From a virus, in the IMG/VR virus record IMGVR_UViG_3300046460_000163, positions 1 to 34,629 of that record: DNA of 34,629 nucleotides. One strand, 5' to 3'. The position numbers and the translations under genes are program-made. This document shows positions 1 through 34,629 of the stretch, piece after piece. Every line of letters begins with the position of its first letter. Position 1 is the first letter of the stretch. A model generated the notes under the pieces. The model did not search any database and was not told the DNA's origin. It saw nothing but the letters and a program-made list of their open reading frames with translations.

Positions 1-21
1 GGCCGGGGAATGTGTCCCCGG
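1..21. repeat. 21-bp terminal direct repeat (left copy)
   Basis: Bases 1-21 are identical to 34609-34629. The repeat contains an inverted repeat, CCGGGGA-ATGTG-TCCCCGG. A coupled gene reads through the joined ends, so this is best read as the overlap of a circular or circularly permuted molecule rather than a biological long terminal repeat. The short length could simply be an assembly overlap. Confidence 0.85.
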
Positions 22-2587: not shown

Positions 2588-4099
2588 TCAGGCGCCACCG
2601 ACACCAGGGGCGGTTTGCGGTCCGCGGAGCCAATCGAACTCGATCGTCGACAGGTCGGTGCGTGTTCCGTCGGGCATGCGGCCGCGCCGGCCGGGGCGGA
2701 CCACGACCGTCACCGCGGCCCGCAGGACACCGCGGCGCTGGTCCAGGTCCATGCCCTTCCACACCGCCCACGGATCGTCGGCGCCCACCAGGTCCACAAG
2801 CGGATCCTTCATCGCGGCGGCGGCCAGCTGGCCCAGTGCCGTCTCCATCTGGCCGGTGGCGACCCGGCTGCCCTCGGCGAGCTGGGCCGCGTCGATCGTG
2901 CCCGCGCCGAACATCCCCGACAGGTCGGTGAGCCGCTGCCGCAGCAGCACCACGTTCGTCTGCAGCAGCGCCACGTCCATGCCCGACGGGGCGGGCAGCA
3001 GCAGATCGGCGGCATCCTCGCGGGACAGGCGTTCCAGGATCACGTCACGGACGAAGTCGTCGAGGACGTCCGCGCGGCGGGTGACCTTGCCCATGCGGCA
3101 CCGGTACGCGGGCTGGTGCCCGACGTTCCCCGACTTCGACACGCGCATCGTCACGTTCCCGCACAGGCAGTCGGGCATGCCGCACAGGAACAGCCCGGAC
3201 CCGAGCCACTTCGGCTGGTTGCCGGGCGTCGTCCGGCGTGCGGGGTCCTTCAGGACGGCCACGACGGCCCGCCACGTCGGCTCGGGGACGATGGCCGCCC
3301 ACTTGCCCGCCGCGATCTCCTGGCCCTTGTAGACGGCGATCCCGGCGTTCCTGGGGCGCAGCAGCATGTCCCGCAGGTCGATGGACGTCCACGGGTTGCC
3401 GCGGGTGGTGGTGACGCCCCCGTCGTTGAGGCGCTTGACGAGGGACCGCAGGGACGTGCCGGTGAGGATGGCCTCGCTGCATTCGAGGACGTGCCGTGCC
3501 TCGTCGGGGACGAGCTGGTTGTAGTCGAGCAGCTGGATCTCGTAGTCCTCGCCGGTCTCCTTGTCGGTGGCGGTGCGGGTCTCGCCGGTGGGGGCGCCCC
3601 AGCCGAAGGGGCGGATGCCGCCGGACCACTGGCCGTTCTGCGCGGCCTGCAGCCGGGCCCGGCGGACACGCTCGCCCTTGTGTTCGGATTCCTGGCGGGC
3701 GACGGCTCCGAGGATGCGGGCGGTCATCCGGCCGGACGGTGTGGATAGGTCGATGACGCCGGCCTGGCAGGTGTGCGTGGACACGCCGCGCCGCTCGGAC
3801 AGGTTGATGTACTCCTCAAGCTCCAGCGGCGACCGATGCAGCCGATCGGTATGCCAGGCGATGACGACGGTGGCCTTGCCCGCGTCCAGGTCGGCGAGCA
3901 TCCGGCGGTACTCCGGGCGGCGCTTGCCCGAGAACGCGGAGATGTCGTTGTCGATGTAGACCTCGACGACGGTCCAGCCCATACGCTTGGCCAGCGCCTC
4001 GCAGTCCTCGCGCTGCCTGTCCACACCGAGGCCCGCGCCGGTGCGATCCTGCGAAATGCGCACGTAGATCACGGCGCGAATGCTGCTGTCCATGTCCAC
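2588..4099 (-). CDS. int: Large serine integrase (site-specific recombinase)
   Basis: About 500 residues, the usual size for phiC31/Bxb1-type integrases. The N-terminal resolvase-type catalytic domain has VIYVRISQDRTGAGLG with nucleophile Ser16, plus the arginine-rich WHTDRLHRSP and GRMTARILGAVARQE motifs. A recombinase domain follows (GGIRPFGW onward), then a zinc-ribbon region with several Cys (LFLCGMPDCLCG to AYRCRMGK) and a Leu-rich coiled coil near the C-terminus. It integrates the phage by recombining attP with a host attB, and needs a directionality factor for excision. The start is GTG 4097-4099 or ATG 4091-4093; neither has a strong Shine-Dalgarno. The attP candidate lies 15 bp upstream, as in Bxb1 and phiC31. 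Confidence 0.97.
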   Translation of the reverse strand: MDMDSSIRAVIYVRISQDRTGAGLGVDRQREDCEALAKRMGWTVVEVYIDNDISAFSGKRRPEYRRMLADLDAGKATVVIAWHTDRLHRSPLELEEYINLSERRGVSTHTCQAGVIDLSTPSGRMTARILGAVARQESEHKGERVRRARLQAAQNGQWSGGIRPFGWGAPTGETRTATDKETGEDYEIQLLDYNQLVPDEARHVLECSEAILTGTSLRSLVKRLNDGGVTTTRGNPWTSIDLRDMLLRPRNAGIAVYKGQEIAAGKWAAIVPEPTWRAVVAVLKDPARRTTPGNQPKWLGSGLFLCGMPDCLCGNVTMRVSKSGNVGHQPAYRCRMGKVTRRADVLDDFVRDVILERLSREDAADLLLPAPSGMDVALLQTNVVLLRQRLTDLSGMFGAGTIDAAQLAEGSRVATGQMETALGQLAAAAMKDPLVDLVGADDPWAVWKGMDLDQRRGVLRAAVTVVVRPGRRGRMPDGTRTDLSTIEFDWLRGPQTAPGVGGA

Positions 4100-4114: not shown

Positions 4115-4162
4115 TGTGTCCCAGTCTCGGTTTCGTGAACCCGAAAGGTAGGTTGAGACACA
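4115..4162. other. attP: Candidate attP core site for the serine integrase
   Basis: A 48-bp imperfect dyad centred on AA at 4138-4139. Left arm TGTGTCCCAGTCTCGG then TTTCGTG; right arm (reverse strand) TGTGTCTCAACCTACC then TTTCGGG. Sixteen of 24 symmetric positions pair, with TGTGTC, CA, CT and TTTCG conserved at identical offsets in both arms. Known large serine integrase attP sites are about 40-52 bp imperfect palindromes with a non-palindromic central dinucleotide, next to the start of int. The AA dinucleotide would set orientation. Size, symmetry and position all fit; the function is inferred. Confidence 0.78.
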
Positions 4163-4172
4163 TCAAGATGAG

Positions 4173-4312
4173 GGTGACCGTAGGTGACTGACAAAAAATG
4201 GCCGAAAGGGTACCCAGATTGTGAGTACCCCTCGCGGTGACCAGCGCTTTTCCCCGGACATGGGTCGGCCCCCACCGCCGGGCTTGGATGCGGTGAGGGC
4301 CTTGCCGCCCTC
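4173..4312. promoter_or_regulatory. Integrase upstream control region and terminator-like hairpin
   Basis: Between attP and the small genes, GGTGAC occurs at 4173, 4183 and 4236. The palindrome GGGTACCC (4208-4215) is followed by GTACCC at 4225-4230, giving a GGGTAC/GTACCC inverted repeat. A GAGGGC-cttgcc-GCCCTC hairpin (4295-4312) could end transcription of the two small genes before attP. The integrase promoter presumably lies here, but I cannot pick convincing -35/-10 boxes. Confidence 0.4.
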
Positions 4313-5683: not shown

Positions 5684-6625
5684 TCAGGCGGGCTCGGGCC
5701 CGATGTTCTCCAACCGCAAGTCGAACGGGTACGTGCTGTGGGCGTACACGAGGCCGCTGCCGGTGCCTTGGTGGACGAGGGCGGCGGTGACCTTGCCGTT
5801 GCCGTCGATCTGGCCGGACGTGACGGTGAACTGCGGCGGGTTGGTCACGTACTCGAACGTCAAGCTCGGGTACATCGACGGCTCGCCCTCGGAGAGGGGA
5901 GTACCGGCCCCGGTCCCCATGTAGACGTCGATGGCGCCGGCGCTGGTGAGCGCTGCCCAGTCCAGGAAGTGACTGCCGACGTGCATGAAGTCGCCGACGA
6001 TCTGGATGCGGTCGCCGACGGCTGCGGTGATGGAGCACTGGAGCAGGGTGCCGCCGGAGGTCTGCACGACGGCCCAGGACGGGGCCGACGGGAGGCCCGA
6101 GAGGTTGTCGTTGATCACGTGCACGCTCGCGGTACGGATCGCGGAGCCGCTGCCGGACGATGGCGTCTGCCAGGTGGCCGTGGTCGCCGACGTCGCGGTG
6201 AGGACCTGCCCGGCCGTGGGCGTGCCGGAGACGAGGACGTCGCCGATGTAGCGGGGGTCTTTCAGCACCGTGTAGGTGCCGGCGACGGGGGCGGGTTGAA
6301 GTACGTCGGCCAGCTTCACGGAGGCCGCGGCCTTGGGCAGGGTGACGTACTGGATCCAGTCAGGCCCGTTGGTCAGCATCGCCGTGACCGTGTACGTCCA
6401 GCCCGTGGGGTTCATGCCGGTGGCGTCGGTGGCGACGAGCTGCACGGAGAACTCTCCGTCGACCAGCGGCACCTCGACGGCGCCGCCGAGCGTGACGTCC
6501 TGGGCGCCGATGACCGCCAGGTCCGGGGCGGTGAAGATGAGCTTGCCCTGCATCCACGCCCCGTTGGGCAGGACCAGCGGCTGCCCGGAGGAGACGGTGA
6601 CTTTCTCCACGCTGGAGAACGGCAT
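5684..6625 (-). CDS. Putative tail fibre / receptor-binding protein, 313 aa
   Basis: Last gene of the late operon. The N-terminal ~110 residues (MPFSSVEKVTVSSGQP to DWIQYVTLPKAAASVKLADV) resemble the strand-rich attachment domain found at the start of actinophage fibre and baseplate proteins. A short linker (GTPTAGQVLTATSATTATWQ) of the type common in fibre shafts follows. The C-terminal ~150 residues are rich in strands and Gly/Ser/Thr and end in YPFDLRLENIGPEPA, plausibly a trimeric tip. Adsorption to the host surface is the expected role. Its ATG overlaps the stop of the collagen-like gene by one base. Fibre identity rests on position and composition rather than a named domain. Confidence 0.65.
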   Translation of the reverse strand: MPFSSVEKVTVSSGQPLVLPNGAWMQGKLIFTAPDLAVIGAQDVTLGGAVEVPLVDGEFSVQLVATDATGMNPTGWTYTVTAMLTNGPDWIQYVTLPKAAASVKLADVLQPAPVAGTYTVLKDPRYIGDVLVSGTPTAGQVLTATSATTATWQTPSSGSGSAIRTASVHVINDNLSGLPSAPSWAVVQTSGGTLLQCSITAAVGDRIQIVGDFMHVGSHFLDWAALTSAGAIDVYMGTGAGTPLSEGEPSMYPSLTFEYVTNPPQFTVTSGQIDGNGKVTAALVHQGTGSGLVYAHSTYPFDLRLENIGPEPA

Positions 6626-7281
6626 CAGAGCCTCCTGTAGGTACCTGTTGCGGCGAGTGCGGCCAGGCCGAGGCCGCCCTCAGTGGGGGTGGGGCTGGGG
6701 GTGTCGTCGCGGTGGCAGGCCAGGTAGTCGGGCTGGTCCGGCATGGGCTGCAGCGAATAGCCGTCCGGACAGCTCGGGCCGGCCGGACCACGGTCGCCGG
6801 CGTCGCCCTTCTCGCCTTGCGGTCCGGGGACGGTGGAATCCGCGCCCGGTTCGCCCTGCGCCCCCTGTGGGCCCGGGACGGTGGAGTCCGCGCCGGGCTG
6901 GCCCGAGGCTCCGGACGGTCCGGGCGACGGCGTGATGGTCGGTGCGGCCTTGCCCGATGGCCCCGCCGGCCCGGGTGGACCAGGGATGGGGACCGGCACT
7001 TCCGCCCGGTCGTTGAGGTTCTTCACGGCCTTCGTCGGGTCCGGCGCCACGGGCGTCTTACCGGCGGCCTTCACCTGCTGCCGGAGCGCCCGCACGTCCC
7101 CGGCCAGGGTGGACACGGCCGTGCCCCGTAGGTCGGCCTCGGCGGCCAGCTTGTCCGCCCGCTTGTCCGCGCCGTCTATACGCGCCCAGATGATGGTCAC
7201 CGCACCCACCAGGACGACCAGCACACAGACGAGCAGGGCGCTACGCCACCGGGGGGCGAGGAGGAGCTGAGCGCGGGTCAC
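6625..7281 (-). CDS. Membrane-anchored collagen-like repeat protein, 218 aa
   Basis: Starts at GTG 7279-7281, overlapping the stop of the upstream gene (GTGA). A single transmembrane helix lies near residues 14-33 (ALLVCVLVVLVGAVTIIWA) after a short basic N-terminus, then a coiled-coil stretch (RADKLAAEADLRGTAVSTLA). A Gly-X-Y region follows at ~100-170 (IPGPPGPAGPSG, PGPQGEKGDAGDRGPAG). The GADSTVPGPQG unit occurs twice, with near-identical DNA. The C-terminal part has two Cys and a Pro/Thr tail. Collagen-like segments form trimeric rods in phage fibres, but the N-terminal membrane helix is unusual for a virion fibre. It sits between lysis genes and the fibre gene; its role is open. Confidence 0.8.
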   Translation of the reverse strand: MTRAQLLLAPRWRSALLVCVLVVLVGAVTIIWARIDGADKRADKLAAEADLRGTAVSTLAGDVRALRQQVKAAGKTPVAPDPTKAVKNLNDRAEVPVPIPGPPGPAGPSGKAAPTITPSPGPSGASGQPGADSTVPGPQGAQGEPGADSTVPGPQGEKGDAGDRGPAGPSCPDGYSLQPMPDQPDYLACHRDDTPSPTPTEGGLGLAALAATGTYRRL

Positions 7282-7505
7282 GGCGGGGTTCCTCCCAGCT
7301 GGGTGATGTGGGCGCGCAGCCGGGTGTTCTCGGCCTGGAGGTCGGTGACCTTGCGGTCGAGCCGATCGCGTTCTTCCTGCAGCTCGTTGGTGAGCGAGGT
7401 GTAGCCGTTGAGGGCGGTCTCGCCCTTCTTCCCGAGGTACGCCACTGCCGCCCCGGCGACTGCGCCCGCACCGACGAGCAGGGTGCCGAGCGACGTGGCG
7501 TCCAA
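7278..7505 (-). CDS. Small membrane protein with coiled coil, lysis-associated, 75 aa
   Basis: The start is TTG 7503-7505, preceded by GGAGGGCCCG, the same ribosome-binding cassette as at the endolysin TTG. Residues ~5-25 (SLGTLLVGAGAVAGAAVAYLG) form one membrane helix. The rest is a charged coiled coil (ELQEERDRLDRKVTDLQAEN). Genes of this shape beside holins in actinophages are usually called second holins or membrane accessory lysis proteins. It follows the two-helix holin and overlaps the collagen-like gene by four bases. A spanin-like role is less likely because no signal peptide cleavage site or partner is seen. Confidence 0.75.
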   Translation of the reverse strand: MDATSLGTLLVGAGAVAGAAVAYLGKKGETALNGYTSLTNELQEERDRLDRKVTDLQAENTRLRAHITQLGGTPP

Positions 7506-7529
7506 CGGGCCCTCCTGCGAGGTGAAGAG

Positions 7530-7787
7530 TCAGACGCCCGAGGCCGTCGACGCGGAGTTCTTGTCGCCCACCACGCGGGCGACGAGGCCCTTCACGAGCG
7601 AGCCGACGGCCGCGATCCCGGCGGTGCCGACGGTCTGCCAGAACGCGGCGTGGAACATGTCGGCGGGACCGGCCGCGAGGGCGACGCCGCCGGATGCGAC
7701 GAGGAACGTCCAGACGACGCGCTCGCCCAGGTCGCGGGCGTAGGTGGCGGCGGTCTTGCCGAGGGCGGGGAAGTTAGGAGTAGCCAT
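7530..7787 (-). CDS. Holin, 85 aa
   Basis: Two hydrophobic helices, ~25-41 (VVWTFLVASGGVALAAG) and ~48-70 (AAFWQTVGTAGIAAVGSLVKGLVARVV), with a short amphipathic N-terminus. Size and pattern match r1t-like holins of actinophages and lactococcal phages. The protein permeabilises the membrane so that the endolysin reaches peptidoglycan. It lies 21 bp downstream of the endolysin, completing a lysis cassette. The ATG at 7785-7787 is used. Confidence 0.88.
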   Translation of the reverse strand: MATPNFPALGKTAATYARDLGERVVWTFLVASGGVALAAGPADMFHAAFWQTVGTAGIAAVGSLVKGLVARVVGDKNSASTASGV

Positions 7788-7808
7788 GGCAGATCCGTTT
7801 CTGCGAGA

Positions 7809-8654
7809 TCAGGAGACGACGGTGAACAGGCCGGTGGTCTTGCCGAGCTTGGTGAGGGATGCGCGGCCGGGGATGCCGTCGGCGGCCGTGCCGGAGTAGC
7901 CGAGGTGGCGCTGATAGGCGGCGTAGGCGGCGACGGTGGTCGTGCCGTAGGAGCCGTCGTGGGCGTACTGCGAAGTGAGGTAGCCGAGTTCGAGCAGGGC
8001 GGCCTCCACGAGGTGGACACCGGCCGCGTAGGTCTGGTGGCCCTGCGCGGCGTGCGGGTCGGTCCTGGCGGCCTGGGCGAGCTTGGCGAGGGACACCTTG
8101 GGCTTCGCGTTCGTCACCGGCTGGGTGGTCGTGCCGGCCGGGCGGGGAGCGCCAGCCTGCACCCAGACGTAGAGGTACTTGCCGGGGCAGGCCGTGGCGT
8201 AGCCGTCCTTGTGCCCCTTGATCTCGTCTCCGGCGCCGCCGTCCTGGCGCAGCAGCTCGATGGCGTCACGGATCCCGCCGAGCATGGCGTCGGTGGGCTG
8301 GGTGAGGCCCTTGTCGCCGACCATGCCGCACACCGCGTAGTGGGCCTTGTTGAGGGTCTGGTTGCCGTTCGCCGCGGTCTTCTTGTGGACGCCGCGGCCC
8401 TCGTAGACGTAGCCGTGCGGGCAGACCAGGAAGTTGTAGGCGATGTCGCTGTAGTCCTCCTTGGCGTTGGCGAGGTGGGCCGCCTGGATGGCGCGGACCC
8501 GGTCGTCGCACGTGCCGTGCTGGTCGGCGTCGGCGAGGCTGGCGGGCACGGTAGTGCCCTCGTAGTGGACCTTCACGCCCTTGGTGCTGGCGATGTGGAC
8601 GAGGTCGTAGCGGGATGGTCTGGCGCCCCACTGGGCGCGGGTGACGAGCTTCAA
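7809..8654 (-). CDS. Endolysin: N-acetylmuramoyl-L-alanine amidase with peptidoglycan-binding domain, 281 aa
   Basis: I start at TTG 8652-8654 because GGAGGGCCCG lies directly upstream and translation then begins at KLVTRAQWGARPS, the usual start of PGRP/Amidase_2 enzymes; the longer upstream reading frame is Pro/Arg-rich noise. Likely zinc ligands are His30 (VKVHYEG), His148 (IKGHKDGY) and Cys156 (TACPGKY). The C-terminal ~200-271 region (QTYAAGVHLVEAALLELGY to GIPGRASLTKLG) is a PG_binding_1 repeat. It cleaves the amide bond between MurNAc and the stem peptide. There is no signal peptide, so release depends on the adjacent holin. A hairpin with a T-run in the gap upstream may separate it from the tail genes. 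Confidence 0.95.
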   Translation of the reverse strand: MKLVTRAQWGARPSRYDLVHIASTKGVKVHYEGTTVPASLADADQHGTCDDRVRAIQAAHLANAKEDYSDIAYNFLVCPHGYVYEGRGVHKKTAANGNQTLNKAHYAVCGMVGDKGLTQPTDAMLGGIRDAIELLRQDGGAGDEIKGHKDGYATACPGKYLYVWVQAGAPRPAGTTTQPVTNAKPKVSLAKLAQAARTDPHAAQGHQTYAAGVHLVEAALLELGYLTSQYAHDGSYGTTTVAAYAAYQRHLGYSGTAADGIPGRASLTKLGKTTGLFTVVS

Positions 8655-8659
8655 CGGGC

Positions 8660-8721
8660 CCTCCAGGGCATGAAGAAAAACCCGGCCGGATGGCTCGGGG
8701 CGGCGGGGGCGTGGGGGTGGA
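8660..8721 (-). terminator. Possible terminator between tail genes and lysis genes
   Basis: Read leftward, the gap contains a CCGGCCGG palindrome followed directly by a T-rich run (GTTTTTCTTC, around 8672-8682 on the plus strand as A's). This is the best T-run in the minus-strand intergenic sequences. It could reduce tail-to-lysis read-through. The stem is short, so confidence is modest. Confidence 0.4.
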
Positions 8722-9219
8722 TCAGGTGATGGCCATGGCTCCGGAGAAGTCGCCGGACTCGCCGATGTCCTCGACTTCGACATAGGCCACGTTGCTCGTG
8801 CTCGCGGCGATCAACGCGTTCCCGGTACCGCTGGCCCGCACATAGGTGGCGACCAGCGCGGCGGTGACGTCGGCACTGGTCGAGTTGGTGCAGATGTTCT
8901 GGAAGTACACCGGCGCGTTGGCGCCTGCGGCGGGGATGGACACCCGGACCTGGTCGATGTAGGCGGTGCCGCTCGTGTTGGTCTTGCGGACCCGGACGGT
9001 GACGGTGTCGGCGGCTATCGAGGACTGTGCGAGGCACTTGAGGGTGACCCTGTACGCCCGCCCGGCCTCGAACGTCACGGAGCCGGTGGTGAACCCCACG
9101 GTCTCCGTGGTGGTCACCGTGGAGGTGTTGGCCGTCAGCGATGTGTACTCGATGGTATGGGGCGTGTTGTCGTTGAGGCGCTGGGCGGTGCCTTTGTTCC
9201 CGGCGAGCCACGTGGCCAT
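8722..9219 (-). CDS. Minor tail protein, 165 aa
   Basis: Starts at ATG 9217-9219 with AGGAGGGATCC upstream. Begins MATWLAGNKGTAQRLND, an N-terminus frequent among small Streptomyces phage tail proteins. The rest is a beta-sandwich-like sequence (TVTTTETVGFTTGSVTFEAG, YRVTLKCLAQSSIAADTVTV). It lies between the tail-tip protein and the endolysin, as minor tail or decoration proteins do. Probably surface exposed; receptor binding or virion decoration is possible. Its C-terminus (VEVEDIGESGDFSG) has no recognised motif. Confidence 0.7.
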   Translation of the reverse strand: MATWLAGNKGTAQRLNDNTPHTIEYTSLTANTSTVTTTETVGFTTGSVTFEAGRAYRVTLKCLAQSSIAADTVTVRVRKTNTSGTAYIDQVRVSIPAAGANAPVYFQNICTNSTSADVTAALVATYVRASGTGNALIAASTSNVAYVEVEDIGESGDFSGAMAIT

Positions 9220-34469: not shown

Positions 34470-34629
34470 GCTGCGGCCTCGGTCCTGGTGCCGGTGCCCC
34501 AGATGGCGAGGCGGATTGCTGCCCGCTGCTCGATGGACAGGGGCGGTGCGGCGTCGGCGTGCTTCTTGACCAGCGCCCAGTAGGCGGCGCCGCCGGGCCG
34601 GGCCGGGCGGCCGGGGAATGTGTCCCCGG
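34466..34629 (-). CDS. 3' part of the junction-spanning small gene
   Basis: The stop TGA (34466-34468) overlaps the next ATG. The frame is open to the right end of the window and continues, after collapsing the 21-bp terminal repeat, to the ATG at 47-49. The visible part reads GDTFPGRPARPGGAAYWALV and KKHADAAPPLSIEQRAAIRL, ending IWGTGTRTEAAA. See the entry at 1-49. Confidence 0.7.
   Translation of the reverse strand, partial: GDTFPGRPARPGGAAYWALVKKHADAAPPLSIEQRAAIRLAIWGTGTRTEAAA
34609..34629. repeat. 21-bp terminal direct repeat (right copy)
   Basis: Identical to bases 1-21; its inner inverted repeat (CCGGGGA/TCCCCGG, loop ATGTG) is described at the left copy. It marks the closing point of a circular or circularly permuted molecule of 34,608 unique bases. 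Confidence 0.85.

Follow-up and report, generated by a model that had tools for sequence, protein, structure and literature searches.

Does the imperfect inverted repeat next to a large serine integrase gene in this viral DNA act as the phage attachment site (attP), and, if so, at which bases would the strands be exchanged and which host gene would receive the phage? Serine integrases bind attP and its host counterpart attB as dimers, cut both with 2-base overhangs, swap the ends and religate them (PMC5311408, PMC3783163). We addressed the question in the window, meaning the whole stretch of 34,629 nucleotides analysed, and in the prophages of relatives found by searching Streptomyces and wider groups.

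The inverted repeat and its neighbourhood

The 48-bp element reads TGTGTCCCAGTCTCGGTTTCGTG-AA-CCCGAAAGGTAGGTTGAGACACA on the + strand and TGTGTCTCAACCTACCTTTCGGG-TT-CACGAAACCGAGACTGGGACACA on the integrase strand (Table 1). Its two 23-bp arms, flanking AA, agree at 16 of 23 positions; the blocks TGTGTC, CA, CT and TTTCG are spaced alike in both; an earlier note on this DNA had the 16 matches and the motif offsets right, while its denominator of 24 included one column too many. The same note placed the element 15 bp from the integrase start. The two do adjoin, but the gap is 21 bp when counted from the ATG at 4093, the figure of 15 bp assuming a GTG at 4099 that is absent from the relative with a 92% identical integrase, viral contig L003, whose integrase start aligns with ATG 4093.

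The adjoining gene carries resolvase and recombinase domains (PF00239, 5e-34; PF07508, 5e-10) and matches the PHROG integrase family phrog_95 (6e-93). Beyond L003, its product is 70% identical to the integrase of a prophage in genome G496, the best identity among named phages being only about 38%. The L003 site is intact and identical to that of the window at 44 of 48 positions. Used as a DNA query against named phages, the attP region gave no match, nor did a search of viral contigs with a strict att pattern.

Table 1. Coordinates of the features around the inverted repeat in the window
Feature	Position	Strand	Description
Predicted attP	4115-4162	-	48 bp; 42-bit match to a profile of ten attPs derived from prophage ends
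Parts of the predicted attP, read on the integrase strand	4162-4140; 4139-4138; 4137-4115	-	P arm; core; P' arm
Predicted crossover dinucleotide	4138-4139		AA on +, TT on the integrase strand; all ten junctions include TT
P' arm outer motif	4115-4120	-	GACACA; GACACC in relatives, where it occupies core +18 to +23; the half-site table shows conservation
P arm outer motif	4157-4162	+	GACACA on +, read as TGTGTC on the integrase strand; prophage P arms carry the motif equally far from the core
Large serine integrase gene	2588-4093	-	501 aa; ATG 4093 is the most likely start
Hairpin (GGGTACCCA/TGAGTACCC)	4208-4230		Inverted repeat between the tail/lysis genes and the predicted attP
Tail-fibre, collagen-like tail, holin and endolysin genes	5684-8783	-	PHROG matches: tail 4e-33 and 7e-29, holin 1e-8, endolysin 9e-41

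Symmetry alone is weak as proof of function, because eight places in the window reach at least 16/23 and two of these reach 18/23, and we therefore rejected it as a demonstration of attP. When the 200 bp preceding the integrase gene were shuffled by mononucleotide, only 0.26% of the shuffles held a site this symmetric, and no place in the window other than 4115-4162 combines at least 16/23 with perfectly matching outer blocks (6/6).

Phage genes flank the element on both sides, with the integrase and a regulator on one and tail-fibre, holin and endolysin genes on the other, and the same arrangement crosses the site in L003. The first and last 21 bp of the window (1-21 and 34609-34629) are identical (GGCCGGGGAATGTGTCCCCGG, itself a hairpin), and the two record ends are adjacent in L003; together, these observations make it very probable that the record represents a closed 34,608-bp circle, carrying an intact attP and not integrated. 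The earlier note had likewise taken the intact site to mean a free form rather than a prophage, and both the flanking phage genes and the abutting ends in L003 bear this out.

Beyond the P arm, the hairpin at 4208-4230 has an equivalent in L003, where the sequence differs and the pairing is kept. The late transcript may end there; the terminator scan, which came back empty, did not call this hairpin. In loci L046-L054, a conserved GCAGGTCA outside the P arm is followed by variable hairpins, and the window has GCTGGTCA at 4238-4245 on the minus strand. On the integrase side, CACACTnGG is conserved a few bases before the integrase ATG in L007-L017 and is perhaps the -10 element of a leaderless transcript.

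Prophage ends and the crossover point

In 13 Streptomycetaceae genomes, an integrase 59-70% identical to that of the window lies beside a TadA/CpaF-family ATPase gene that is cut in its P-loop. Nine of these genomes have the N-terminal half of the split gene 35-42 kb away on the same contig, and three, all drafts, have it on a different contig; it was not found in G142. Both prophage ends could be paired for ten prophages, nine on single contigs plus that of G224 on two, and from these pairs attP was read off.

All ten reconstructed attPs have the form P arm-TT-P' arm (GGTGTC...GGG-TT-CCCGAA...GACACC) and line up exactly with 4115-4162. Every one of the ten junctions lies where the window site predicts, at TT on the integrase strand and AA on the + strand, aligning with 4138/4139. 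In G280, G675 and G496, attL and attR have nothing but TT in common at the junction; G324 has a short deletion at attL. The half-site consensus comprises CCCGAA near the core and GACACC 18-23 positions from it. We discarded a hand alignment of the relatives that took the AA within CCCGAA as the core, since it put GACACC 6 bp out of register and left the attR junctions in disagreement. The prophage of G238 (L010) differs from the others in having a small gene between attL and the integrase.

A profile built solely from these ten prophage-derived attPs scores the window site at 42.0 bits on the integrase strand and 21.3 bits on the opposite strand of the site, and the L003 site at 43.8 bits. With G496, the closest integrated relative, left out, the window site still scores 32.6 bits; its P' arm is identical to that of G496 at 19 of 23 positions. 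The next distinct place in the window reaches -3.2 bits, and the shuffle maxima are 9.7 bits (twenty shuffled windows) and 6.1 bits (100,000 shuffled sites). That the inverted repeat is a functionless chance match, a reading to which the eight places with at least 16/23 symmetry would lend some colour, is extremely improbable against the 42 bits of this independent profile, with no more than 9.7 in shuffled windows.

The junctions also bear on whether 4115-4162 instead regulates the integrase gene, as an operator or promoter element to which a repressor binds symmetrically. An imperfect palindrome 21 bp upstream of a start codon does occupy a common operator location, but the junctions of ten relatives fall on its centre and one arm is kept at each prophage end, whereas an operator would not be split between prophage ends; nor did a consensus scan find a sigma-70-like promoter. 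We thus regard an operator as very improbable, although the attP may double as part of the integrase promoter region.

Taken on its sequence and these comparisons, 4115-4162 is almost certainly the attP used by the large serine integrase of this phage, with the core AA/TT at 4138-4139. Both the profile and the junctions of the ten relatives agree with the earlier proposal of a 48-bp attP beside the integrase, and the check that had been named for it, the prophage ends of relatives, shows ten prophages with 59-70% identical integrases broken at the equivalent of 4138/4139. By established serine-integrase chemistry, an integrase dimer would bind both arms, both strands would be cut with a 2-base stagger at AA/TT, and the halves would be joined to a host attB having the same dinucleotide, in a single orientation because AA/TT is not its own complement. 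A shared AA core in the host site, also predicted in the earlier note, holds for the ten relatives.

The host gene

In the relatives, the integration point lies in the Walker A codons of the TadA/CpaF-family secretion ATPase gene. A query joining an N-terminal and a C-terminal half from two genomes identifies the split gene as TIGR03819 (507 bits, cut-off 373) and PF00437 (T2SSE, 1e-65). Joining the host flanks restores SGGTGxGKTTLL in 10/10 cases, and the same sequence is found within an intact gene in uninterrupted genomes; 11 of the 12 genomes checked contain the host site. On the + strand, the AA core makes up bases 1 and 2 of the GKT lysine codon.

The integrase tree places G496 as sister of the window plus L003 (support 85/80), and 13 of the 14 clade members found in genomes use the ATPase gene. 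The exception, L018 (genome G252; 54% identical integrase), is nested in the clade and neighbours a Pnkp-like kinase gene, its insertion point being perhaps the 3' end of the preceding gene; since it branches inside the clade yet sits at another gene, target switching does happen. The ATPase gene (TIGR03819) is, on this comparative evidence, the probable target of the window's phage as well, a step that we infer because this one relative sits in a different gene. In a Streptomycetaceae host, the attB would most likely lie in the codons for the Walker A motif (GGTGxGKTT) of this ATPase, and integration would split its gene.

An attP joined to an attB with the same AA core, but in a different gene from that used by the 59-70% relatives, is unlikely though appreciable. 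Such a difference would find precedent in L018, and more distant integrases, 39-48% identical, are found at comM/yifB (Mg-chelatase-like) or NCS1 permease genes (L020, L023, L029, L030; L019, L027). Moreover, the closest integrated copy found has an integrase only 70% identical, about 1,200 genome searches, some with genomes repeated, having returned none above 70%. Yet that very copy, in G496, sits in the ATPase gene, as do nearly all members of its clade found in genomes, and has the P' arm likeness and TT core in common with the window, which argues for the ATPase gene as the site in the window's phage too.

As a separate observation, the ATPase gene of G014 (L042, L044; G014:C3) is apparently split elsewhere, about 94 residues past the P-loop, with a serine-recombinase-like KLDRYARS adjoining.

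A further-reaching proposal is that this integrase clade of Streptomycetaceae phages has settled on the ATPase Walker A codons such that lysogeny would inactivate the ATPase and excision would restore it (active lysogeny), the window's phage representing a new lineage of this clade; we regard this as speculative and rather improbable.

Relation to known integration systems

The attPs of the Streptomyces phages phiJoe, phiC31, phiBT1, SV1 and R4 are likewise imperfect inverted repeats of about 48 bp with a central dinucleotide, located roughly 20 bp upstream of int, and the reading of 4115-4162 as a further example of an already known kind of integration site is well supported. The phiJoe attP lies 18 bp upstream of int and has a GG core (PMC5311408), unlike the AA/TT core of the window.

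The resemblance extends to the attP of the A118/LI integrase, with half-sites of about 24 bp made up of an inner and a distal motif, the latter 16-24 positions from the core (PMC3783163). Half-sites in the window and its relatives are organized in the same way, their strongest distal block lying at 18-23, whereas sequence and host differ. By analogy with the A118-family structure (PMC3783163), the zinc-ribbon domain of the integrase probably contacts the P' arm outer motif at 4115-4120. The 5-bp inward shift of the attB distal motif in the A118 model is at best weakly visible here, a shift of 5 scoring highest at 0.47 but barely above a shift of 2 at 0.45.

In contrast to the 70% identical integrase, the similar P' arm and the common TT core, the P arm of G496 is identical to that of the window at only 13 of 23 positions, and the rest of the prophage is nearly unrelated. 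Because so little else is shared, the integrase-attP module seems, as far as these sequences indicate, to move between phages as a cassette; for the same reason, gene-order comparison with the G496 prophage was set aside as uninformative.

phiJoe and Samy target radical SAM genes (PMC5311408, PMC12924846). The relatives described here differ from both in using the TadA/CpaF-family ATPase gene. To our knowledge, this gene is not among the other published Streptomyces targets either. The main text of a survey of large serine recombinase target genes (PMC10083194) names no target by the words pilus or ATPase, and our search of open-access papers, covering part of the literature, found no published account of this ATPase target. 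A complete set of integrase, attP and attB with a defined core would be another Streptomyces integration system, and the relatives show the P-loop of a secretion ATPase to be a recurrent phage target.
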